Assembly (NCBI RefSeq): GCF_900474295.1
Contig: NZ_UCOB01000026.1
Location: 1-64,000, forward strand
DNA length: 64,000 bases
Origin: Synechococcus sp. UW140
GTDB taxonomy: Bacteria; Cyanobacteriota; Cyanobacteriia; PCC-6307; Cyanobiaceae
Direction: 5' to 3'
Part shown: piece after piece, positions 1-14,545 of the stretch
Position numbering within the stretch: the first letter of the stretch is position 1
How the letters are laid out: every line of letters begins with the position of its first letter
Made by a program: the position numbers and the translations under genes
Notes under the pieces: generated by a model
Database searches by the model: none
Seen by the model: the letters and a program-made list of their open reading frames with translations, nothing else
Told to the model about the DNA's origin: nothing

Positions 1-332
1 TGCGGGCTGGTGTGCCGCTTGAAACTCAAAGTGAGCTGATCACGCTCATGAGCCAAAACCCTCAGTTGATGTTTGAGCGGATTGTGGAGCTTGCGGCAGA
101 GAAGGGCATGACCACCAGCGTTGAGGAAGTCAAAGGGTTCCTGGCGCAAATGGATGAAGAGGAAGAATTTGATGACATCGAACTCGATGCCATCGCTCTG
201 GTCGCCATTGCTGGTGGTGGTGGCGGTGGTCGTCGCGGTTGCGGCTGCCAAGAGGAAGCACACGACGAACCTTGGGGGCGTTGCCCTGGCATGCGGCCGA
301 TGCGTAAGTGGTTGTTCGGGAGGAACGCCTGA
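1..332 (+). CDS. Nif11-type RiPP precursor peptide 1 (5' end outside window)
   Basis: Ribosomal peptide precursor: an acidic leader followed by a small core. The leader shows the Nif11-like pattern (an NP...IVELAAEKG helix, then an acidic stretch and ELDAIALVAIAGG), and the GG is the expected C39-peptidase cleavage site. The core is Gly-rich at first (GGGGRRGCGC), has three Cys and ends in a basic segment with Lys and Trp. The reading frame is open to the left edge. Ungapped alignment with the next gene suggests the N-terminus lies upstream of base 1, although GTG at 12 or ATG at 48 are possible starts. Its stop overlaps the next start as TGATG, so the two are probably translationally coupled. 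Family call is firm; the modification type is unknown. Confidence 0.75.
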   Translation, partial: RAGVPLETQSELITLMSQNPQLMFERIVELAAEKGMTTSVEEVKGFLAQMDEEEEFDDIELDAIALVAIAGGGGGGRRGCGCQEEAHDEPWGRCPGMRPMRKWLFGRNA

Positions 333-601
333 TGGACAAACTGGAACGGTTTAAGCAGCTTTCTGACGCCATGCCGATGGCGACAAAGCTGGAGCTCTAT
401 CAGCAGTTTGTTTCCAATCCAGAAGCAGGCATCAACAGCATCATTGCTCTAGCCGCCAAGGAAGGGCTGGAGCTCAATCAAGCTGAGGTCTCGGAACTGA
501 TTAAAACCATTGACGTCGATGAAGAGTTTGATGACGTTGAACTGGATGCCATCGCTCTGGTCGCCATTGCTGGTAGGAAAATGAGGAATAGTCGCTGCTG
601 A
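332..601 (+). CDS. Nif11-type RiPP precursor peptide 2 with very short core
   Basis: Second precursor, 89 residues, starting at ATG 332 after a GGGAGGA ribosome site. An in-frame upstream extension to 308 exists but lacks this signal. The leader contains a NPEAG...IALAAKEG helix and an acidic DVDEEFDDVELDAIALVAIAG end that nearly matches peptide 1 in DNA as well as protein. After it only RKMRNSRC remains, so the core is about eight residues with one Lys and one Cys. The canonical double glycine is reduced to a single Gly followed by Arg, so cleavage may be altered or the gene may be decaying. It overlaps peptide 1 by one base. Confidence 0.75.
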   Translation: MDKLERFKQLSDAMPMATKLELYQQFVSNPEAGINSIIALAAKEGLELNQAEVSELIKTIDVDEEFDDVELDAIALVAIAGRKMRNSRC

Positions 602-2705: not shown

Positions 2706-4922
2706 TCAGGCACTTTCTCGCAACAGCTGGGCATAAGGGCTCTCTTGATCAGCAATCATATCTTGATGTCGACCTCTTTGAACAACCTGACCTTTGTCCA
2801 TCACTAGAATCAAATCAGAATCGCGGATTGTGCTAAGCCGATGAGCAACAACAATTTGAGTACAACCACGTCGACTCAGATTTTCAATCACAAGGCGCTC
2901 AGTTTCAGCATCAAGGGCCGAGGTTGCTTCATCCATGATCAAGATGCTTGGATCACGCACCAAAGCCCGTGCCAACTCAAGGCGCTGACGTTGTCCGCCC
3001 GAAAGATTATGGGCTCCTTCACTCAAGACTGACTCAATTCCTTCTGGCAATCCCTGAATGACATCTTCAATTTCAGCATCACGACAAGCCTTCTGAAGAT
3101 CTAGGGGTGTAATCAAGGGATTCCAGAGCGTGAGATTCTCTCTCACAGAGCATCCATACAGCTGAATCTCTTGCTGAACCATGGCTAGGGAGTTTGTGGC
3201 GACAGCACGAGGTATGGCAACCAAAGGAAATCCGTCGAACAGAATTTCTCCAGACGTGGACTGATAGAGGCCAGCAATTAATTTTGCAAGCGTACTTTTA
3301 CCACTTCCGCTCCCCCCAACCAAAGCAATGCGTTGGCCAGGATAGATTGTCAGCGACAGTTCATTGATTAACGGATCCTTAATAGCAACAAAGCCAAAGC
3401 TTACATTCTCAAGCCGAATGGAACCAGTGAGCCGGCGATTCGCATTAGCGAAGGGAACAGCACGGTCTGCACTATTGAGCAAAGGGTCGCGCGACTGTTC
3501 GAGTACGTCCTCCAAACGCAACACCTCGGCTTCAAAAGTAGGCAGTTGCTGGACAAATATGATGATGTTGTCGATCTGGGTCTTAAGCGAAAGTGCGATT
3601 GTTTGGGATGCAAGAAGCATGCCCAGAGTGAGTTGACCTTTAATAACAAGGAAGAAACCCAACACGAAGATCACCACTTCGTTAAGTGTGGTCATGGCAT
3701 TGGGAATGACTCGAATCCGAGCATTTCTCAATTGCAAGTCCTGCAGAGTGTTGAGTAGACGACTTTGAAAACCTGAAAAGCGCCTAAACACATCCTGCTC
3801 AATCGCCGCAGCTTTGACAGTTTCAATATCGCGCATAGCGCTAACCACCACAGCATCGGCTTTGGCACCATCCTTCTGCAGGATCAGATTGGCATCTTTT
3901 TGAATGCGCAGATTAGCTTGAACAACAACCGCATTGACTCCTGTCGTCGCCATCACCAAAAAGCCCAGCCAAGGGCTATACAACATTGTCAAGACGAGAT
4001 AAAAGAGCAACAACACCAGTCCGGTTGCCATTGGGATCAGGCGGCTACCGATGAACTCGCCAATACTGGAATTCGCTTCCATTCGGCTAGCAATATCAGA
4101 GGCGTAGCGCTGGCTATAGAAACGCTCTGGGAGCGCAAGCATCTGATGTTCAAAGCCAACAGCAAAACGACGGGTCAATCGTTTTTCAAGCTTACGACTA
4201 CCGAGTAGCTGGAAGTATTGAAGGATTGCCTGCAAGCTAATGGTTAAAGCCATCGCCCAAAGCATCGGCTTAAGCCACTGATCCATACCATTACCAATCA
4301 CTTCATCGAGATAAATCTGCGCATAGATCGGCATGACGAGCTGAGGCAAAACCAGTAACAAGCCGCTGATCAAAATAAACAATGATCCCCATGGTTCACT
4401 GAATAAGCGTCGCCAAACAATGGGCCAAACGGAGGGAGATTTACCGTCACGCACAAAGCTTTCATCAGGCGTGAGCGTGAGAACGATTCCTGTATAACTC
4501 GTTTCAAATTCTTCACGGCTAACGGTACGTGGGCCAAGCGCCGGATCGTTGAGGGCAACACGGTCGCCGATGAATCCCTCAAAGACCAGAAAGTGATTAA
4601 ATTCCCAGAAAAGAATTGCTGGTGGAGTCATTGCCTCAAGGGCTCTGATACCTTTCTTAAAGCCCCTTGCTTTCAGCCCAAATTGAGCAGCAGCCAAAAC
4701 AAGATTGGCTGCATCACTACCATCCCTGGAGACTCCGCAACTCTCACGCAGTTGAGTAAGCGGCACATATTTTCCATAGTATTGAAGGATAATTCCTAAT
4801 GATGCCGCGCCGCATTCGGTATATTCCATTTGCAGCCGAGTTGGAGTTCGAACCCATCGTCCACGAGTCTTAGCTTGAAGTTCACGAAAACGTTGTTGAA
4901 TAAGTTGAATGAGCATCGACAT
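2706..4922 (-). CDS. NHLM-type peptidase/ABC exporter (C39 protease, permease, ATPase)
   Basis: A 738-residue bifunctional exporter that should cut leader peptides after the GG-type site and pump the core out. The N-terminal C39 peptidase has the catalytic triad Cys37 (TECGAAS), His110 (FNHFLVF) and Asp126 (LNDPALG). The transmembrane domain spans about residues 170-460. The ATPase follows with Walker A GGSGSGKST near 535, signature LSGGQRQR near 640 and Walker B ILIMDEATSALD near 660. Domain order and length fit the peptidase-containing NHLM bacteriocin transporter family. It is the last gene of the minus-strand export operon, ten bases after the HlyD gene. ATG 4914-4916 (third codon) is an alternative start. 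Confidence 0.9.
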   Translation of the reverse strand: MSMLIQLIQQRFRELQAKTRGRWVRTPTRLQMEYTECGAASLGIILQYYGKYVPLTQLRESCGVSRDGSDAANLVLAAAQFGLKARGFKKGIRALEAMTPPAILFWEFNHFLVFEGFIGDRVALNDPALGPRTVSREEFETSYTGIVLTLTPDESFVRDGKSPSVWPIVWRRLFSEPWGSLFILISGLLLVLPQLVMPIYAQIYLDEVIGNGMDQWLKPMLWAMALTISLQAILQYFQLLGSRKLEKRLTRRFAVGFEHQMLALPERFYSQRYASDIASRMEANSSIGEFIGSRLIPMATGLVLLLFYLVLTMLYSPWLGFLVMATTGVNAVVVQANLRIQKDANLILQKDGAKADAVVVSAMRDIETVKAAAIEQDVFRRFSGFQSRLLNTLQDLQLRNARIRVIPNAMTTLNEVVIFVLGFFLVIKGQLTLGMLLASQTIALSLKTQIDNIIIFVQQLPTFEAEVLRLEDVLEQSRDPLLNSADRAVPFANANRRLTGSIRLENVSFGFVAIKDPLINELSLTIYPGQRIALVGGSGSGKSTLAKLIAGLYQSTSGEILFDGFPLVAIPRAVATNSLAMVQQEIQLYGCSVRENLTLWNPLITPLDLQKACRDAEIEDVIQGLPEGIESVLSEGAHNLSGGQRQRLELARALVRDPSILIMDEATSALDAETERLVIENLSRRGCTQIVVAHRLSTIRDSDLILVMDKGQVVQRGRHQDMIADQESPYAQLLRESA

Positions 4923-4932
4923 TGCAGTGACT

Positions 4933-6054
4933 TCAGTAAATCCCTGTGAGATCTCGCAAGATCGGAATCACATAACTGATGGGTCGTCGTTCTTCTACCA
5001 ACACACGAACCTTGGTCGGCGTTCCTGCCGAAAGCTCTAGTGTTGGACCTGTTCCACCGCCCCAGTTGTACCCACTGGGTGTGTCTGAATCACGCTCCAA
5101 TGTAGTGGTAACTTCAATCAGTGGCTCATGAGGCTTGGCTCGAACAGACTCCAGTAGGGACTTGACACCAAGACGTTTGATCACGGCTGAATCGCGAACA
5201 GGCAACTGCCGAATGTTAATGATTTCACCCTGGATTCCCCCATGCCGCTGTTGTTTGGTGGTAGTGGGGCTGATGCGGACCCTTTGCCCTGTTCGCAGGC
5301 GTTTGCCATCTTTAGCGGGAAAAAAGACAAGACTTTCCAGGCCAGCGCGACCATCTCCAGCCTGAAGAGTATATAAAGTAGTGCCCGACTGAACAACCTC
5401 TCCTTGATGCACTCCCCGGTCAACCACACAACCACTAATCGGAGCACGAATTAAACTCGTACGTTCTATTTCTTCTAGACGTGAATGAATTTGGCTTTGT
5501 TCCGCCTTGATCTGTTGCTCACGTTGACTATTCTCAGACTCTATTAAATATTTCAACGCAGTGAGCTGACGTTGCCTTTTGTTCAGATCGTCTGTAGAGA
5601 TGGCTCCAACACTTGCCAAGTGCCTGACGCGATGAATATCTTTCTGCAACTGTTCCATACGCATAGCTCCAAGAAGATCTTGATTCTTGTCTTGCAATAA
5701 CATTTGCTCTAATCGTGACTGAGCTGCTTTCATCTCTACCTCCTGAGTCACCGGATCAATACGACCCATAAGAGATCCACTGGCTAGGCAATCACCAACT
5801 TTTGCCTGAAGCTCTGTGACGCGACCCGCCATTTCGCTCTGCACAACGGTGAGGCTGTTTGGCTTGATCAACACGCCACGTCCGCTGACGCGAACAGGGA
5901 TACGGCCGACAATCGACCAGGCCAAAATAGTAATGCTGAAAAAGCTCAGCGAAGCCAATAGGATCCATTGACTTGGCCGAAGCAGCTGTAGAGGTTGGTC
6001 GAGTTGTTCAGGACTGGAGAGTGCATCCAGTGCAGTCTTACGGAAAAGGCTCAT
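4933..6054 (-). CDS. HlyD-like membrane fusion protein of NHLM exporter
   Basis: A 373-residue periplasmic adaptor linking the ABC exporter to the outer membrane. It has one N-terminal membrane helix at about residues 30-50 (WILLASLSFFSITILAWSIV), then a biotinyl-lipoyl half (VSGRGVLI...VQSEMAGRVTELQAKVGD), a coiled-coil segment around 105-200, and the second lipoyl half (IRAPISGCVVDRGVHQGEVVQ). This architecture matches the NHLM secretion-protein family. Its ATG overlaps the stop of the upstream ABC gene as ATGA, so the two are translationally coupled. An adaptor between two ABC subunits is typical of NHLM systems. Confidence 0.88.
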   Translation of the reverse strand: MSLFRKTALDALSSPEQLDQPLQLLRPSQWILLASLSFFSITILAWSIVGRIPVRVSGRGVLIKPNSLTVVQSEMAGRVTELQAKVGDCLASGSLMGRIDPVTQEVEMKAAQSRLEQMLLQDKNQDLLGAMRMEQLQKDIHRVRHLASVGAISTDDLNKRQRQLTALKYLIESENSQREQQIKAEQSQIHSRLEEIERTSLIRAPISGCVVDRGVHQGEVVQSGTTLYTLQAGDGRAGLESLVFFPAKDGKRLRTGQRVRISPTTTKQQRHGGIQGEIINIRQLPVRDSAVIKRLGVKSLLESVRAKPHEPLIEVTTTLERDSDTPSGYNWGGGTGPTLELSAGTPTKVRVLVEERRPISYVIPILRDLTGIY

Positions 6055-8756
6055 TGGATTTGACGCTCCATCAATCGAGCAAACACTCCTTTGCTATTGA
6101 TCAGGGCGTCGTAATTACCTTGTTCCTGAACCTGTCCTTGATCTAAAACGACGATACGGTCTGCATGACGTATCGTGCTCAGACGGTGCGCAATCACCAA
6201 GCGAGTGATGGATAGTTTCTCAAGGCTATTGCTAACGATTGCTTGAGTATGGTTGTCGAGTGCACTGGTGGCCTCGTCAAAAATCAGTAAGCGAGGCTTT
6301 CTTACGAGTGCACGGGCAATACCGACACGCTGGCGCTGACCACCTGAAAGAGTGCCACCGCCATCAGGAATGACAGTTTGCATCCCCATTGGCATTTCGC
6401 GAATCTCATCGGCCAAGCCCGCCAATTCGGCTGCATGCCATGCCTCTTCTTCCTGGATCACAGCACCACCCGCAATAACCTCGATCAGAGAACCACTAAA
6501 CAGTGAGTTGGTTTGAAGCACAGTACCAATTTGGCGGCGAACACTACGCAATTCAAGGCCACTAAGAGGTTGGCCATCCAATCGAATCACGCCATCTTCT
6601 GGAGCAGCAAATCCAAGCAAGAGACGGACCAAGGTCGATTTACCTGAGCCTGAAGGACCGACAATTGCAACATATTCACCAGCCTTAGCCTCAAAGCTGA
6701 CGCTATCGAGCACCAGAGGTCGGTCTTCAGAATAACGGTAACTAACGCGATCAATTTGAATATCACCACGCAGGATACCGGCCTCTTGATGGTCATCATC
6801 AGATTCAACATTTGCATCAAGCATTGGCCTGAAACGTTCATAGATGATTGGCAAGTCAAAGGCGCCTGACAGCAAGCCAGCCAAACCAGCGATGCCACCA
6901 ATAAAAGTTCCAAATGCTGCCAAGAAACCAAGCTGTTGCCCTACATTTGGAGCATTCAAAATTGCAGAATTAGAAGCCTCTGAGATCAACTTAGTGATCA
7001 TTATATAAACAAGTAATGTGCCAAGGTTGGGCATTACTGCTTGCAATAGCTTTACAGTTGCCTGCTTGGCATCGAGAGAATTTTCAAGGGCAATCACTTG
7101 CTTAAATCGTCCCGCCCACCATTGGGCTGCAGCTGCTTCAGCACCCGCTATTCGAAGTTTGCTCACAGAGCTGATTAACTCAAGATTACGACTTTGAGCC
7201 GCAGCCTTAGCCGTCTCTTGGCGGCGTTGAAGAGATCGAGATTGTACTGCCATGATGGCGGTAGGTAGCACAATCAGACCTGACAGAACCACAGCCAACA
7301 CTGTTAGCTTGACGCTGATGCGTAGCATGAAGAGGAGATAAAGACTGGTGAGCAGAAACTTCACCAAGCCTCCCTCCATGAGCACTCTGATCTCTTTTCG
7401 AAGTTCCTCAAGCGCACCAAAGCGCAACTGCAACTCACCCACAGTACGTTGACGAAAAAAGTCAATTGGAAGACTTAAAACCCGTTGCATCCCTGCCAAT
7501 TGGATGCGTGCTGCACCGCTTTGCTGAGTTAGTAACACATCCCTGCTTTGCACCCACTCCAAACCAACTCTGGTGATGCCTCCGACAAACAACAACATGC
7601 TGATCTGCAATAGAAGCGAGAGGTCTCGATCTGGGAGCGCTTGATTGGCAATCGCGGTGTTGAATGCCGGCGTCAACATTGCTAAAAATGTTGCCAACAC
7701 CATGACGGCAACACCACTGCGAAAACCGCCACTCAAAAGGCCAAGGCAAGTGCCTAAGCCAGCACCGGATGCCGCCATACAGAAAACCCATCGAGCTGCC
7801 CCAACCTCACGGCCGATAGAGAGCAAAAAACCAAGTGCCAAGCCGAGAAGAAGGCCAATCACAATGAATTGAGTGATCTCTCTGGGCTTTCCAAATGCAA
7901 AGCGCAACAAACCAGGCGTAGTGAGATCTTGGCGCATTAAACCTGGGCTAATGGCCACCATGCGTGGGCTGAGCTTGCTCAGAATCGTCCGGCAATCAGC
8001 CACGGGGATTGGATGGGGCATGCTCTCAGGAGCCCAGAGCATATAACCATTTTTTTTAGATTGAAGCAGAGCAGGGGAATCGCGATCCTCTTCGAAAAAA
8101 GCAATGAGATCACCACAGTTTTGTTGTAATTGATGTTCGTTCATCACGACATCACGTCCAATCAATCCATTGCTCTCAAGTAAATGCTGCAAGTATCGAC
8201 GTGAATTTAAGCTATCACTCCCTACTGAGATAGCAGCATGAGCAGTTCGCCCCCTGATGAGGGCAATGCAACGCATTAATGCATCATCCTGATGCGATAC
8301 CCCAATCAAGCTGGAATTCAAAGTGTCATCAGATTCAAGGTGGCGAAATAATTCAGTTGCCGTCGATTGATCAAGCGCCAAATGGCTGGCCAACCTCTCA
8401 TCATGTCTATGAATTAGTTCAAAACTGAGCGCCTCAAATAGACCACAAATATTTCCAGATTGATCGTGCACAAGATTGGGATTTAGCTGCTTCAGAAGTG
8501 TGCATAGCTGGTCCTCTAACCATGCATTTCCACGTGATGCATCTGGAATTTCCTCTCCAAGGAAAGTAACATCTTGTGCAGTTCTGAGTTGAAGCGGTAG
8601 TGCAGTGACCGTCTCACGAGGCAAACCTGGCAGCACAATACCCACAGGTACTCGCAAAATCGTAAAGCCACTGATCACGACCATCAGACCATGACCATCT
8701 GCCTTGAATGGATGGTCAGGCCATGAAATCAACTCACCAGCAAAAACCTTCATCAC
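6051..8756 (-). CDS. NHLM-type ABC transporter without peptidase domain
   Basis: A 901-residue ABC half-transporter with a long N-terminal region (about 1-285) that has no C39 catalytic motif. A membrane domain follows at about 290-630, and the ATPase has Walker A GPSGSGKST near residue 700, LSGGQRQR near 805 and a DEATSALD Walker B near 828. Length and layout match the second, non-protease NHLM ABC family, presumed to pair with the C39-containing subunit. The start ATG overlaps the preceding cNMP-binding gene by four bases (ATGA). A second Met follows immediately, so the start could shift by one codon. Confidence 0.88.
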   Translation of the reverse strand: MMKVFAGELISWPDHPFKADGHGLMVVISGFTILRVPVGIVLPGLPRETVTALPLQLRTAQDVTFLGEEIPDASRGNAWLEDQLCTLLKQLNPNLVHDQSGNICGLFEALSFELIHRHDERLASHLALDQSTATELFRHLESDDTLNSSLIGVSHQDDALMRCIALIRGRTAHAAISVGSDSLNSRRYLQHLLESNGLIGRDVVMNEHQLQQNCGDLIAFFEEDRDSPALLQSKKNGYMLWAPESMPHPIPVADCRTILSKLSPRMVAISPGLMRQDLTTPGLLRFAFGKPREITQFIVIGLLLGLALGFLLSIGREVGAARWVFCMAASGAGLGTCLGLLSGGFRSGVAVMVLATFLAMLTPAFNTAIANQALPDRDLSLLLQISMLLFVGGITRVGLEWVQSRDVLLTQQSGAARIQLAGMQRVLSLPIDFFRQRTVGELQLRFGALEELRKEIRVLMEGGLVKFLLTSLYLLFMLRISVKLTVLAVVLSGLIVLPTAIMAVQSRSLQRRQETAKAAAQSRNLELISSVSKLRIAGAEAAAAQWWAGRFKQVIALENSLDAKQATVKLLQAVMPNLGTLLVYIMITKLISEASNSAILNAPNVGQQLGFLAAFGTFIGGIAGLAGLLSGAFDLPIIYERFRPMLDANVESDDDHQEAGILRGDIQIDRVSYRYSEDRPLVLDSVSFEAKAGEYVAIVGPSGSGKSTLVRLLLGFAAPEDGVIRLDGQPLSGLELRSVRRQIGTVLQTNSLFSGSLIEVIAGGAVIQEEEAWHAAELAGLADEIREMPMGMQTVIPDGGGTLSGGQRQRVGIARALVRKPRLLIFDEATSALDNHTQAIVSNSLEKLSITRLVIAHRLSTIRHADRIVVLDQGQVQEQGNYDALINSKGVFARLMERQIQ

Positions 8757-9775
8757 GGGCGCCCAGATGAACCTTGAAAATGTTCACATAGATTGCTAAA
8801 TCTCTGGCCAGCACGATTAATGATACCAAGCTGATTGAGATCGAGCTGATCATCATCATTGCCTTGCTCAGCGGCTCCACTTCGTGTTGCCAATTGCCGG
8901 CTTAGCAGTTGATCCCGACTACGTTGAGACAGCATACAACTCAAACTACGATAAAATCTTGCGGCAAAATCAGGTCGTTGATGAAATGCCAACTTCAGCT
9001 GTTGCTTATTGATCTCAAGAAGTTCCATTCCGTTGGAACTGATGACACTCGCCGTTGCGCCTTGAGAATCTGCAATGAGCAATGTAAGTTCTCCAAGTAG
9101 CTCACCACGGCGAGAGCTTCCCACCTGCTTATTGCCACCATTCAAGCTCACAAAAATCTCTGCCTCACCGGACAAGATTAGATAAATTGAAGACACTTTT
9201 TCTCCTTGCATTAAAAGCCGATCACCAGGCTTGATCCTTCGCAGCGAACCAAGTGTTGCAAGCAAGTTGATATCTCGATCATTGAGCTTAGAAAAAAGAA
9301 CAAAGACCTTTCGCAATGGTTCTATCTCGACACCAGCTTCACTATTCCGATGAATCCAAGCATTTTGCCGATTGATCTGGCTGGCAAGTTTCCTGGCAAT
9401 GATCCAATGCAAGTCCGCCGAAAGCTTGGGATCATCTTCAGCCAAGCGTTCCAAAACAGAGGGCTTTAGTGCAAGTAATTTGCATGGGCTCAGCGCAAGC
9501 ACAGTTGCCACTGCTGGACGATTTTCAAGCCAGCTCATTTCTCCTACAATCGCACCATGGCCTAAGATCGCCAATTGCTTTTGATTACCACTTGGATCGG
9601 TCGTTTGAACGGATAACTCACCATCCACTAGGACATACACAGAACTACTGAGATTTCCCTCGACGATCAAGGGCTGACTAGCATCAATTCTTGTCATTTG
9701 ACCAGATGCTTCCAGCCAGGCGATCAAATCATCGCCGGCTTGCTCGAATAAATTAAACTCGCCAGCGCTGCGCAT
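8753..9775 (-). CDS. tandem cyclic-nucleotide-binding domain protein
   Basis: A 340-residue protein with two cNMP-binding folds, at about residues 10-135 and 155-285. Each shows the jelly-roll pattern (SSVYVLVDGELSV...GHGAIVGEMSWLENRPAVATV, and SSIYLILSGEAEIFV...RRGELLGELTLL). No helix-turn-helix is visible, so it is not a standard CRP regulator. It is the first gene of the export operon and overlaps the ABC gene by ATGA. Cyanobacterial peptide exporters sometimes carry such a domain fused at their N-terminus; here it is separate. An adenylate cyclase 2 kb away makes cAMP gating of export an attractive inference. Confidence 0.85.
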   Translation of the reverse strand: MRSAGEFNLFEQAGDDLIAWLEASGQMTRIDASQPLIVEGNLSSSVYVLVDGELSVQTTDPSGNQKQLAILGHGAIVGEMSWLENRPAVATVLALSPCKLLALKPSVLERLAEDDPKLSADLHWIIARKLASQINRQNAWIHRNSEAGVEIEPLRKVFVLFSKLNDRDINLLATLGSLRRIKPGDRLLMQGEKVSSIYLILSGEAEIFVSLNGGNKQVGSSRRGELLGELTLLIADSQGATASVISSNGMELLEINKQQLKLAFHQRPDFAARFYRSLSCMLSQRSRDQLLSRQLATRSGAAEQGNDDDQLDLNQLGIINRAGQRFSNLCEHFQGSSGRP

Positions 9776-10204: not shown

Positions 10205-10210
10205 TTGCTG

Positions 10211-11611
10211 ATGAAGGTTTCAAGGCGAACAGCATTGCGCGCAGCTGTGTACTTGGCGACACCATGGCTTTTGTTTGGGCCAAGCCAGTTACGTGCTCGT
10301 AATTCACGAGACGCACAGAATAGCGAGAAGCATGTTGTTGTTATTGGTGCAGGAATGGCTGGGATTAGCGCCGCCAAGCAGTTACTGGTCAATGGTTATA
10401 GGGTGACGGTGCTCGAGGCTCGAGATCGACCAGGAGGACGAATCTGGACGACTCAACGCTTAGGTGTACCAGTTGATTTAGGAGCAGCCTGGATTCATGG
10501 TGACTCTAGAAACAACCCTTTAATGAAGTTAGCTAGGGAGCACAGCTTAAGAACTCGAGCAACCGACTGGGATGAGACTTGGCTTTACAAAAAAGGGCAG
10601 GGCGTGATCGAAAATGATAGTGATTACGAGCTAATTGAAGAAAAAGCCCAGCAGATCATCAACCGCATCCATGACTTGCAGCGCACAGCATCAGACAACG
10701 AATCAATGGGGAATGCAATCAATTTACTGCTGGAATCCACCAGTGGTTCTTCTATTATTAAAGATGGAGTGAGATGGTGGCTATCAAGCGAGATCGAAGC
10801 TGTCATGGGAGTCAACTACAAGGACTTATCACTTAAATATTGGGATGAAGATGAAGAATTTGACGGTAGTGACTTACTGCTAGAGAAGGGGTACGGCAAT
10901 TTGATCGAAAAAATGGCTACAGGACTAGATATTCGCTACCAACACATTGTGGATAAAATACAATATTCTGAAGGTGGTACAAAAGTCTCTGGAGGATGGG
11001 GGTCAATGGAAGCAGATAGTGTCCTTATTACAGTGCCACTTGGGGTGCTAAAAGAAAGCTTCATTCAATTCACGCCTAAACTTCCCCGAGGCAAGCTAGA
11101 TAGTATTGAAAGACTAGGCATGGGGCTACTAAATAAAATCGTAATGCGCTTTAGAGAGCCATTTTGGCCATCAGATGCTCATCGCCTCGGATTACTGAGC
11201 AGCACAACATTAGAACGAGTGGAATTCTTTCCGATCCCCCCATTAGCAGACAGTACAGTTCTACTTGCACTGGTTTATGGAGACTTTGCTCGGAGGATAG
11301 AGGATTTACCGAAGCAACAAATTGTTCAACTTTTACTCTCGCAATTGAGGGATATGTTTGGTGAGACTGTTCCTTCAGATGTCTTAGACATTATGATTAC
11401 CGGTTGGGGAAATGATGAATTTGCTATGGGCTCTTATTCACATATTCCACCAGGCGCTTCACTGCAAGATTGTGAGGATCTCTCTAAACCGGTTGGCGCA
11501 AGTTTGTTCTTTGCAGGAGAAGCAACTAACCGCCTATATCCTGGCACGGTGCATGGTGCATATTTGTCGGGATTACGAGCAGCCAGACAGATAGAATTGG
11601 CCCATTCATGA
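10211..11611 (+). CDS. Tat-exported flavin-dependent amine oxidase
   Basis: A 466-residue FAD amine oxidase of the monoamine/polyamine oxidase (LSD1-like) fold. The N-terminus MKVSRRTALRAAVYLATPW is a twin-arginine-type signal, pointing to export of the folded flavoprotein. FAD binding is shown by VVVIGAGMAGISAAKQL, then LEARDRPGGRIWT, and at the C-terminus FAGEATNRLYPGTVHGAYLSG. ATG 10211 is preferred; an in-frame TTG lies two codons upstream. The substrate is unknown: polyamines, other primary amines, or an amine in the exported peptide are all possible. It sits alone, facing the adenylate cyclase gene, with low GC content. Confidence 0.85.
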   Translation: MKVSRRTALRAAVYLATPWLLFGPSQLRARNSRDAQNSEKHVVVIGAGMAGISAAKQLLVNGYRVTVLEARDRPGGRIWTTQRLGVPVDLGAAWIHGDSRNNPLMKLAREHSLRTRATDWDETWLYKKGQGVIENDSDYELIEEKAQQIINRIHDLQRTASDNESMGNAINLLLESTSGSSIIKDGVRWWLSSEIEAVMGVNYKDLSLKYWDEDEEFDGSDLLLEKGYGNLIEKMATGLDIRYQHIVDKIQYSEGGTKVSGGWGSMEADSVLITVPLGVLKESFIQFTPKLPRGKLDSIERLGMGLLNKIVMRFREPFWPSDAHRLGLLSSTTLERVEFFPIPPLADSTVLLALVYGDFARRIEDLPKQQIVQLLLSQLRDMFGETVPSDVLDIMITGWGNDEFAMGSYSHIPPGASLQDCEDLSKPVGASLFFAGEATNRLYPGTVHGAYLSGLRAARQIELAHS

Positions 11612-11699: not shown

Positions 11700-13466
11700 A
11701 TGAGATTTTCTCTGACCAGTATTCGTTTCGTTCTAACTGGAGGAGTGACACTCTGTATTGTTCTTGTTGGTGGATTAGTAGGCGGAATTTCAATATGGGG
11801 CGGAATGAGCTCAGCCATGAGCCTGACTCGAATGGCACAAGTGAAGCAAACCATGATGTTGTCAGAGGAGTTAACCTCATTCACTAATTCTCTTCGCCAG
11901 GAAGCCGCCACAATTTCGGAAGTAATTGGCCAATCTGCTTTTGGCTTAAACAACAAAGAGATAATTACTATTTTATCAGCCTATTCAGAGCACAAAAGCT
12001 CCCTAACAAGTATTACAATTGTTCGCAAGAATAGAACCAACGTATGGGTTGGTCGTTGGAAAGGAGAAGTCGTCCATGAAGTGAATACTGAGCTAGCTGA
12101 GGAAGCCTATGTCTATGCAATTGAAGGGAGACCAGGTGATGGGGGTGAAGGGTTTGAGGATATTTACATCGAACCATCAGAAGGTCGACCAGTAATTACA
12201 TATACAAAGCATTTTGCAGACCAGAGCAATCAACCTGCCGGCACTTTATATCTCGACTTGGGATTAAAGACACTTTCCAAGTCATTATCTGATATACCGG
12301 GTCCTGATCAAGAGAAAATATTTATCTTTGATGCCAATGGATCGGCCATTGCTCATCCCTCCCTCATCAAGATGGAAGCTTACAAAACTTTTAGAAAAGT
12401 CCCTCATATAGGGAATCTAGGTGATCCCGTCGCCAAGGCCATCTATCAGAAAATAAGTACAGGGAATTTCGATATGACGGACATCAAGGTAGGCAAGGAA
12501 GCCTGGCTTGTTTCTATTGCTCGGAACCAAGATGTTGGTGATTCTGATTGGTTCGCAGTGTCTGTAATCCCCCGCCAAGTTGTTTTGGGGCCAGTGTTAG
12601 ACAGAGCAAAATTAGTCACCTTTATTTCACTTGTGATTGTGGTGGCTGCAATTATTATTAGCCAGTTAGTTGGTCGTTCTATAGCTCGACCATTGGGCAA
12701 GCTTGCTTCCGCAGCCGCTGCGGTCCAGGAGTTGGATTTAAAGCTTGCAGTATCTGAGTTGAGTTATTTTGATGAGTTGAGAAAAACGGAGAAGGCATTT
12801 CGTGCAATGCTTCGAAGTTTAGATGTGTTTGCTAAATATGTGCCCAGCAGCTTAGTAAGGCGTTTAATGCAACTGCAGGCAAATGGATATTCAGTGATTG
12901 CTGAGGAAAGAAAAGTTACCATCCTTTTCACTGATGTTGTCGGATACACCTCAATCTCAGATGGCATGCCTCCTGCCGAGCTCGCTGCTCTTCTGAATGA
13001 GTACTTTGAGATACTTGTCGACAAAGTCATTGAACATGGCGGTACAGTGGATAAATTTATTGGTGATGCCTTGATGGTTTTTTGGAATGCTCCTGACCAT
13101 CAACCTGATCATGCTGACCGCGCCATTCAAGCTGGACTAGCGATTCAGGAAGCCGTCAGAGGATTTAATGCACTGAGGTCTGCCAAGGGTTTGATGCCTT
13201 TAGAAACAAGAATCGGAATGCATACTGGGTTAGTCCTTGCAGGTGAAATTGGCTCGACTGAGCGTATGAACTACACGATCGTCGGTGATGCAGTTAATAC
13301 TGCTGCTAGGCTTGAATCTTTAGGGAAAAGTGTTGGGCAAATGTTGTGCATTTCTAGCTCAACAAAGGATGAAGCTCACGGCATTTATCAATGGCAAGAG
13401 GTTGATCGAATCATCTTAAGGGGGAGGTCGGATCAAACATTAGTTTATACAATTAAAGACGCTTAA
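11700..13466 (+). CDS. membrane adenylate cyclase with extracytoplasmic sensor and HAMP
   Basis: A 588-residue class III nucleotide cyclase. A membrane helix at about 8-36 is followed by a large periplasmic cache-like sensor (about 40-295). A second helix (about 302-325), a HAMP linker ([19 protein letters not shown]) and the catalytic domain (about 400-585) follow. The first metal-binding Asp is in LFTDVVGYT and the second in [10 protein letters not shown]. Lys in VDKFIGD and Asp in [13 protein letters not shown] fit ATP rather than GTP specificity, and NTAAR supplies the transition-state Asn/Arg. The product should be cAMP made in response to an outside ligand. The cNMP-binding protein of the export operon is a candidate local receptor. 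Confidence 0.9.
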
Positions 13467-13521
13467 ACCTTCCCCACATAGGACTTAGAGCCATCAATGA
13501 TTCATCAAAAGCCCTTCTTAA

Positions 13522-13580
13522 ATGGATGGATGGATGGATGGATGGATGGATGGATGGATGGATGGATGGATGGATGGATG
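13522..13580. repeat. (ATGG)n tetranucleotide microsatellite
   Basis: Fourteen full ATGG units plus ATG run uninterrupted from 13522 to 13580. In one frame it reads as repeating Met-Asp-Gly-Trp and stops at once with TGA 13579-13581. A four-base unit shifts frame with every gain or loss, as in phase-variable loci. Here it lies between the cyclase stop and a decayed precursor, so any effect would be on a short ORF, spacing or transcription. Confidence 0.95.
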
Positions 13581-13657
13581 ATTTTTCCCTATTGTCGATT
13601 ACCTTAGATTGCCCCGAGGGCTCTTCAACTCAACGCTGCTAGATCTTGCTTAATAAG

Positions 13658-13850
13658 ATCGACAAGACGTCAACTTCATGGCACTTCGCTGAACTGCAGT
13701 TGCTAAATCCTGAAACACAAATCGGGCGTCACAACCTACTGACACAAGCCCCTAAGGTGATGTTCAGTCACATTGTGAGGGTAACTTGTGAGAAGGGGAA
13801 AGAGCGTCAAAGAGCCAAGGAGTTATCGACATTAATCCACACAACCTCCT
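13658..13850 (+). pseudogene. decayed Nif11-type precursor leader
   Basis: In the frame through 13709-13798 the translation runs PETQ...LLTQAPKVMFSHIVRVTCEKG. It aligns without gaps over 30 residues with precursor 1 (LETQ...LMSQNPQLMFERIVELAAEKG), with 13 identities including the P.MF..IV....EKG core. The DNA also matches codon for codon at several positions. An ATCGACAAG at 13658 may be the old ATGGACAAA start seen in precursor 2. No acidic ELDAIAL segment, GG site or core follows. The frame instead runs into the antisense of the dioxygenase gene, so the 3' half seems to have been lost. Confidence 0.55.
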
Positions 13851-13855
13851 CACTT

Positions 13856-14545
13856 TCAAAGACATCTAGCACGATACATGAGTCTGCTCATATCCGAGAA
13901 ATCAGTTCGTGCATGCAGAGCATGCCAGTTATCACACAACAGCACATCACCAGACTCCAACCTCACATGTTCGACAAATGAAGACTCCTGAATTGCCTTT
14001 TCAAATGCCTGAGCAAGGCTAAGGTCAGAATCATTTTTGCAAACGATGTTATCGCTCCGCCAGCGAATAGTTCCATCCTTAAGAAAGATCGGCGATGGGG
14101 GCGAAAAAGCCGGAGTGGATTTGGACCTAAACACCGCCGGAACAGCCCAACTCCAGACGCTCTGTTTCATCCGCTCGACTGCTTGACTGCCAAGTGCCTC
14201 TAGCGCAACTTGATAGGCATCCTTCATACTGATCAGAAGGTTGTCACCACCATCGGCTGCAGGGGTATTGCAGGCGAGAATGAACAGAGGTTCAGGATAT
14301 TGATGATATTGCGAATCGGTATGAAAGCCTGCGGGACCAGCAATTTCGGAATACGTTCCCGTGCTCTTACGGGGTTGTACTGGCCAGGAACCTGTCCCTC
14401 CATCACGAAGGGACAGGTCACCGAAGCCCTTAGCAAAATCCTCAACCGCGGCAGCAGTAACTGGTTTAGACAATACCTGTCTGAACACACGATACTTCGT
14501 CTGTTCAGAGAACAGCGACTTCAAATCGGCATCTGTTAGGGGCAT
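13856..14545 (-). CDS. TauD/TfdA-type Fe(II)/2-oxoglutarate dioxygenase
   Basis: A 229-residue protein with the 2-oxoglutarate-dependent dioxygenase iron triad: His75 and Asp77 in FHTDSQY, and the distal His211 in NWHALHARTDF. A 2-oxoglutarate-binding Arg near the C-terminus (MYRARCL) is also present. It is somewhat short for TauD (usually about 280) but keeps the catalytic set. The substrate cannot be told from sequence: such enzymes hydroxylate small metabolites, taurine or, in some clusters, peptides. It closes the AT-rich accessory region and is followed by 235 bases without a gene before moeB. Confidence 0.8.
   Translation of the reverse strand: MPLTDADLKSLFSEQTKYRVFRQVLSKPVTAAAVEDFAKGFGDLSLRDGGTGSWPVQPRKSTGTYSEIAGPAGFHTDSQYHQYPEPLFILACNTPAADGGDNLLISMKDAYQVALEALGSQAVERMKQSVWSWAVPAVFRSKSTPAFSPPSPIFLKDGTIRWRSDNIVCKNDSDLSLAQAFEKAIQESSFVEHVRLESGDVLLCDNWHALHARTDFSDMSRLMYRARCL

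Follow-up and report, generated by a model that had tools for sequence, protein, structure and literature searches.

The window analysed here, a stretch of 64 kb forming the beginning of contig C24 in a genome of 2.7 Mb on 35 contigs, carries two precursor genes of one family at its very start, then genes predicted to encode NHLP-type peptide export and, further along, oxidase, cyclase and dioxygenase genes (Table 1). C24 and C10 each start within or beside a precursor copy (C24:12 and C10:63); the assembly therefore probably broke at the precursor repeat, and copies may be missing.

Table 1. Genes and other features in the first part of the window.
Feature	Position	Strand	Remarks
Precursor 1	12..332	+	5′ end cut by the contig edge; leader, GG, variable core and conserved tail
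Precursor 2	308..601	+	Same family as precursor 1; GG cleavage site reads GR
NHLP-type export ABC transporter with peptidase	2706..4922	-	TIGR03796, above cut-off
NHLP HlyD-like secretion protein	4933..6054	-	TIGR03794, above cut-off
ABC transporter	6051..8756	-	Best match TIGR03797 (NHLP export subunit), 621.5 bits; cut-off of 709.4 not reached
Bacteriocin-type transport-associated protein	8753..9775	-	TIGR03896, above cut-off
Flavin amine oxidase	10205..11611	+	PF01593
Adenylate/guanylate-cyclase protein, left neighbour of the block	11700..13466	+	PF00211; weaker Cache and HAMP matches
Intergenic stretch between the convergent cyclase and dioxygenase genes	13467..13855		389 bases
(ATGG)14.8 perfect tandem array	13522..13580		Upstream of the block; a neighbour, outside the remnant
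Open frame holding the block	13643..13978	+	Stop to stop; first start codon TTG at 13646
Block similar to the precursor 1 leader (ETQ...EKG)	13712..13798	+	Probable truncated precursor remnant
TauD-type dioxygenase, right neighbour of the block	13856..14545	-	PF02668; 3′ end matches that of relatives

No promoter-like sequence (in a simple scan), terminator-like sequence or credible Rfam match was found in the intergenic stretch between cyclase and dioxygenase. A PYLIS_1 match, considered as a sign of an RNA function, reached 18.2 of 70 bits (E 0.28) and was taken as chance, and the inverted repeats near the site are weak (10-22 bases). The ATGG array, which lies between the same two convergent genes, is the sole place in the genome with its 20-base pattern.

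The initial annotation had described 13658-13850 as a fossil third Nif11 precursor, on the strength of a short frame aligning ungapped with precursor 1 at 13 of 30 positions. That alignment is correct: bases 13712-13798, set against precursor bases 21-107, share 13 of 29 residues without a gap, in the pattern ETQ.......L..Q.P..MF..IV....EKG, and 53 of 87 bases (19, 18 and 16 at the three codon positions) with precursor 1 copies in the window and on contigs C2, C14, C23 and C29, all in the same register. The interval first given does contain the similarity but is wider than it, 87 of its 193 bases being involved. The surrounding frame is open for 112 codons, 111 of them from the TTG, and its last 41 codons, from 13856 on, run antisense to the dioxygenase gene.

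On either side of the block the likeness falls to chance level. Compared ungapped with the four precursor 1 copies that have the whole gene, the 5′ flank matches at 12-13 of 48 bases and the 3′ flank at 10-11 of 57, after which the dioxygenase gene follows; gapped extension toward the start and the N-terminal leader part adds about one score unit (23 vs 22). The similarity is thereby limited to 29 of about 82 leader codons. The block has neither the start codon nor the N-terminal portion of a precursor 1 leader, and after it the acidic leader end (EFDD.ELDA.AL in the family), the GG cleavage site and the core are absent, as the initial annotation had said of these last three. Unlike the precursor 1 copies, the block thus has no start, first leader part, acidic end (EFDDIELDAIAL), GG, core or tail.

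Among 39 family rows compared, the block scores highest with precursor 1 of its own genome (61 with each of the five copies), followed by the closest copies of other genomes (52, 51 and 47), by five more G004 copies (37-38) and by all other rows (32 or less); with precursor 2 the score is 29. A G025 precursor aligns in the same register as the block at 51 of 89 bases, with an E of only 2.9. The label Nif11 did not hold up. PF07862 (cut-off 23.8 bits) matches neither the frame nor precursor 1 or 2, and TIGR03798 (cut-off 32.3 bits) matches neither the frame nor precursor 2 and gives precursor 1 only 14.7 bits, so the search of the frame with curated Nif11 models that had been suggested as a check returned nothing. 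Since the living precursors do not pass a curated Nif11 profile either, such a profile is unsuited as a test here. The same genome has 18 PF07862 matches, 13 of them above the cut-off and none on C24, and when the family was aligned by hhalign with twelve PF07862 proteins of this genome, a probability of 86% was obtained over 23 columns, about half of which are covered by the block. As judged from these profiles, the precursor 1 family is only remotely related to Nif11; the term "Nif11-like" suits its living members as an expression of resemblance, not of membership. A leucyl aminopeptidase match of the frame (E 0.01 for the whole frame and 0.097 for the stretch first reported, at 14.5 and 11.2 of 826 bits) was set aside as meaningless.

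With precursor 1 as query, 9 of 201 genomes gave matches, the own genome among them with 11 places. Precursor 1 itself is present as five near-identical copies on five contigs, in the window and on C2 (L060), C14 (L061), C23 (L058) and C29 (L059), with 0-11 differences over 207 leader bases and full identity within the block region, while their cores of 9-10 residues vary. The tail of 27 residues (QEEAHDEPWGRCPGMRPMRKWLFGRNA) is identical in protein among the five copies, with 12 of 81 base columns varying, and about 20% of random changes would be silent there; this looks like gene conversion of the leader combined with selection on a translated tail. Damaged members of the family exist as well: two precursor 2 copies, on C23 (L058 7672-7914) and C2 (L060 6644-6925), share an internal leader deletion, and the one on C23 additionally lacks the usual GG end. 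In the window, precursor 2 reads AIAGR-KMRNSRC where the C2 and C6 copies read AIAGG-KGRNSHC, and its double-glycine cleavage site is lost. Although the precursor 1 family is dispersed over the genome, its proposed former spread across the whole accessory region was not borne out, since three precursor queries, run with the threshold set to 42, brought up no other place in the window scoring above 42, and the two places at 42 with precursor 2 as query are at chance level.

No relative with the same site was encountered. The 1.2 kb around it was carried by none of 30 same-genus genomes, some of which are incomplete, and in a search of 99 genomes (own included) it was matched by the own genome and, solely through the ATGG array, by two distant genomes. 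Relatives of the dioxygenase at E up to 1e-30 were found in two of 399 other genomes (G356 and G327), and a separate dioxygenase search of genome contigs gave one locus, ARS1019, from a Synechococcus metagenome bin of the same family as the window's genome and with the same sequence as G356; the gene directly after that dioxygenase is, from reading by eye, presumably an AAA ATPase. The cyclase was found at E up to 1e-80 in one of 299 other genomes, again G327, where it is paired with the oxidase; in the stretch downstream of the pair, no precursor match reaches 44. The dioxygenase in ARS1019 and the cyclase in G327 lie in other contexts, not at the same site. A precursor at this site was accordingly seen in no relative searched, and none of those relatives has the site.

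The serious rival to descent from a precursor is chance, with non-coding DNA matching the precursor 1 leader at 13 residues by coincidence; we regard this as unlikely though well worth weighing. At the scale of the window, the block is extreme against simulated, real and reversed decoys. Its ungapped BLOSUM62 score with the precursor 1 leader is 61, while elsewhere in the window no unrelated place exceeds 37. A score of 61 was reached by none of 400 order-2 Markov windows (maximum 54) and by none of 40 decoys of 20 kb, 20 real ones from the same genome and 20 reversed, together 400 kb of real and 400 kb of reversed DNA (maximum 44 and 52, respectively). Gumbel fits, both of them extrapolations, put this score at 1.3e-4 per window for the Markov windows and at 8e-5 per 20 kb for the decoys; simply multiplied up to the whole genome, the latter gives about 0.01. 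The excess at the level of bases is a second, separate signal against chance: given the residues, the 53 identical bases compare with 45.5-46.2 expected from random recoding (P 0.002-0.003), and an excess as extreme occurred in one of 200 decoy matches, one of the 144 real ones among them (P up to 0.007). Moreover, a DNA search with the precursor 1 gene returned the block as the best match outside the true precursors in 864 kb (E 0.002-0.010). Against descent by decay, the 13 matching residues slightly exceed what unconstrained decay to 61% base identity would leave (mean 9.2; P 0.03-0.04).

On the other hand, several observations speak for chance. The sharp edges of the block are typical of chance local matches, and a stretch of the amine oxidase gene (10843-10865) gives a presumed chance DNA match to precursor 1 at a similar E (0.006-0.027). 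By phmmer, the frame was found at E 0.027 among 3,691 frames. Three family profiles were built from 39 collected rows: "core" (27 rows), which omits both broken G006 rows, the deletion copies on C2 and C23, five G246 rows and the distant L032, L033 and L034; "broad" (35 rows), which has the omissions of "core" with the distant rows restored; and "full" (27 rows), which covers the full leader and omits the same rows as "core". Among the window's 1,795 frames, the frame scored 9.6 bits with "full" (E 0.12), 8.7 bits with "core" (E 0.18) and, worse than with "core", 5.8 bits with "broad" (E 1.4). The profile score proposed at the outset as a check therefore comes out on both sides: the 9.6 bits exceed the best of 23,856 decoy frames with the "full" profile (7.8 bits), but correspond to an E of 0.12 in the window. 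Used as a query genome-wide in HMMER, the frame found the five own precursor 1 copies at E 0.081-0.11, which is not significant. Against 300 genomes (own included), it gave matches at E up to 1 in 30 genomes, 38 rows in all. Besides the frame itself, these rows include a precursor from G025 (E 0.123) and the five copies of precursor 1 from the own genome; five others have a lower E than these precursor rows and, to the extent checked, are not precursors. The best of the non-precursor rows, in G296 (E 0.034), and its like in G155 have no DNA similarity with the block, and a check of that search's rows with the family profile, covering nine loci (L064-L072), recognised precursors in L070 alone. 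At the scale of the window, leader similarity beyond chance is found in the 29-codon block only.

Much less probable is that the frame is a live small gene, translated over 111 codons from its TTG. It is open throughout, but an open 29-codon block would be expected in 39% of unconstrained cases; the simple scan found no promoter-like site and the family searches no credible match, the last 41 codons oppose the dioxygenase gene, and the DNA is missing from the 30 same-genus genomes searched, incomplete ones among them. Slightest of all is the chance that the block comes from another leader-peptide family, of typical Nif11 or nitrile-hydratase type, for which the 13 PF07862 matches above cut-off elsewhere in the genome could speak. 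Against it stand the failure of the frame to match either curated model and a similarity that, across the 39 rows of the family, is highest with precursor 1.

Taken together, the block is probably a dead, truncated and unconstrained leader fragment of the precursor 1 family, lying between two convergent genes. The reading as a fossil precursor is in this sense retained, as the best-supported one for a decayed precursor 1-like leader piece, and stripped of the Nif11 name and of the wider spread; of the "third precursor", the leader similarity over 29 codons stands, while a whole gene here would have to be extrapolated from 29 of about 82 codons. Beyond what is seen directly, namely the similarity, its register, its margin over the decoys and the missing flanking parts, we infer common descent, a former whole gene and the way of its loss. 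Most likely, a precursor copy of the precursor 1 lineage was once situated between the cyclase gene and the present place of the dioxygenase. It would then have been cut on both sides, losing its start, acidic leader end, cleavage site and core, by deletion, by rearrangement or through arrival of the dioxygenase gene, three routes that would look alike now, and the remaining block would have drifted without constraint. At 61% base identity, against living copies that are near-identical, the block is therefore either far older than these or released from whatever keeps them alike. With no start, cleavage site or core of the living type, neither a present function nor a product is apparent from its sequence.

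A more far-reaching version, which we consider rather doubtful, is that the block is an escaped old copy of a family whose leaders are kept alike across dispersed loci by gene conversion. Loss of the tail and core would have ended conversion and so preserved unconverted drift, and the island would represent a former longer precursor array from which core-bearing copies moved out over the genome.

As a probable truncated fragment of the precursor 1 family, the block is an ordinary observation. Pseudogenised copies of bacteriocin or RiPP precursors occur as truncated, unconstrained fragments in genomes with living paralogues, and the block resembles them in these respects; it differs in that its homology rests on one 29-codon block, weaker than what usually underlies a named pseudogene. 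Nif11-type precursors in cyanobacteria are described as multicopy and in many cases located beside NHLP-type export genes (PMC2887384, PMC10783134). The Nif11-like leader peptides (TIGR03798/N11P; Haft et al. 2010, PMC2887384) and the prochlorosins (PMC10783134) likewise form families of numerous precursor copies, many of them adjoining NHLP-type export genes, an arrangement also seen in this window. Unlike these, the block and precursors 1 and 2 stay below the curated cut-offs and show remote profile kinship only. On its own, the block, probably a short remnant close to a bacteriocin-type export locus, has little significance. Should it be real, it indicates that the region once held another precursor, and it could serve as an unconverted reference for the near-identical living leaders.

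The precursor 1 tail was also followed beyond this genome. It was matched at E up to 0.01 in 6 of 300 genomes (own included), G158 only weakly, and a literature text search of limited coverage found no paper for HDEPWGRCPGM, a piece of it. The tail also follows precursors in G004 (L027, L036, L041, L046 and L053), G025 (L070 and L101) and G246 (L029), in the last of which the leader before it is much diverged. It is in frame in L101 and L029, comes after a stop in L027, L036 and L070, and lies in another frame in L041, L046 and L053. One possibility is that the tail is a mobile module for a mature peptide, now undergoing decay in G004.
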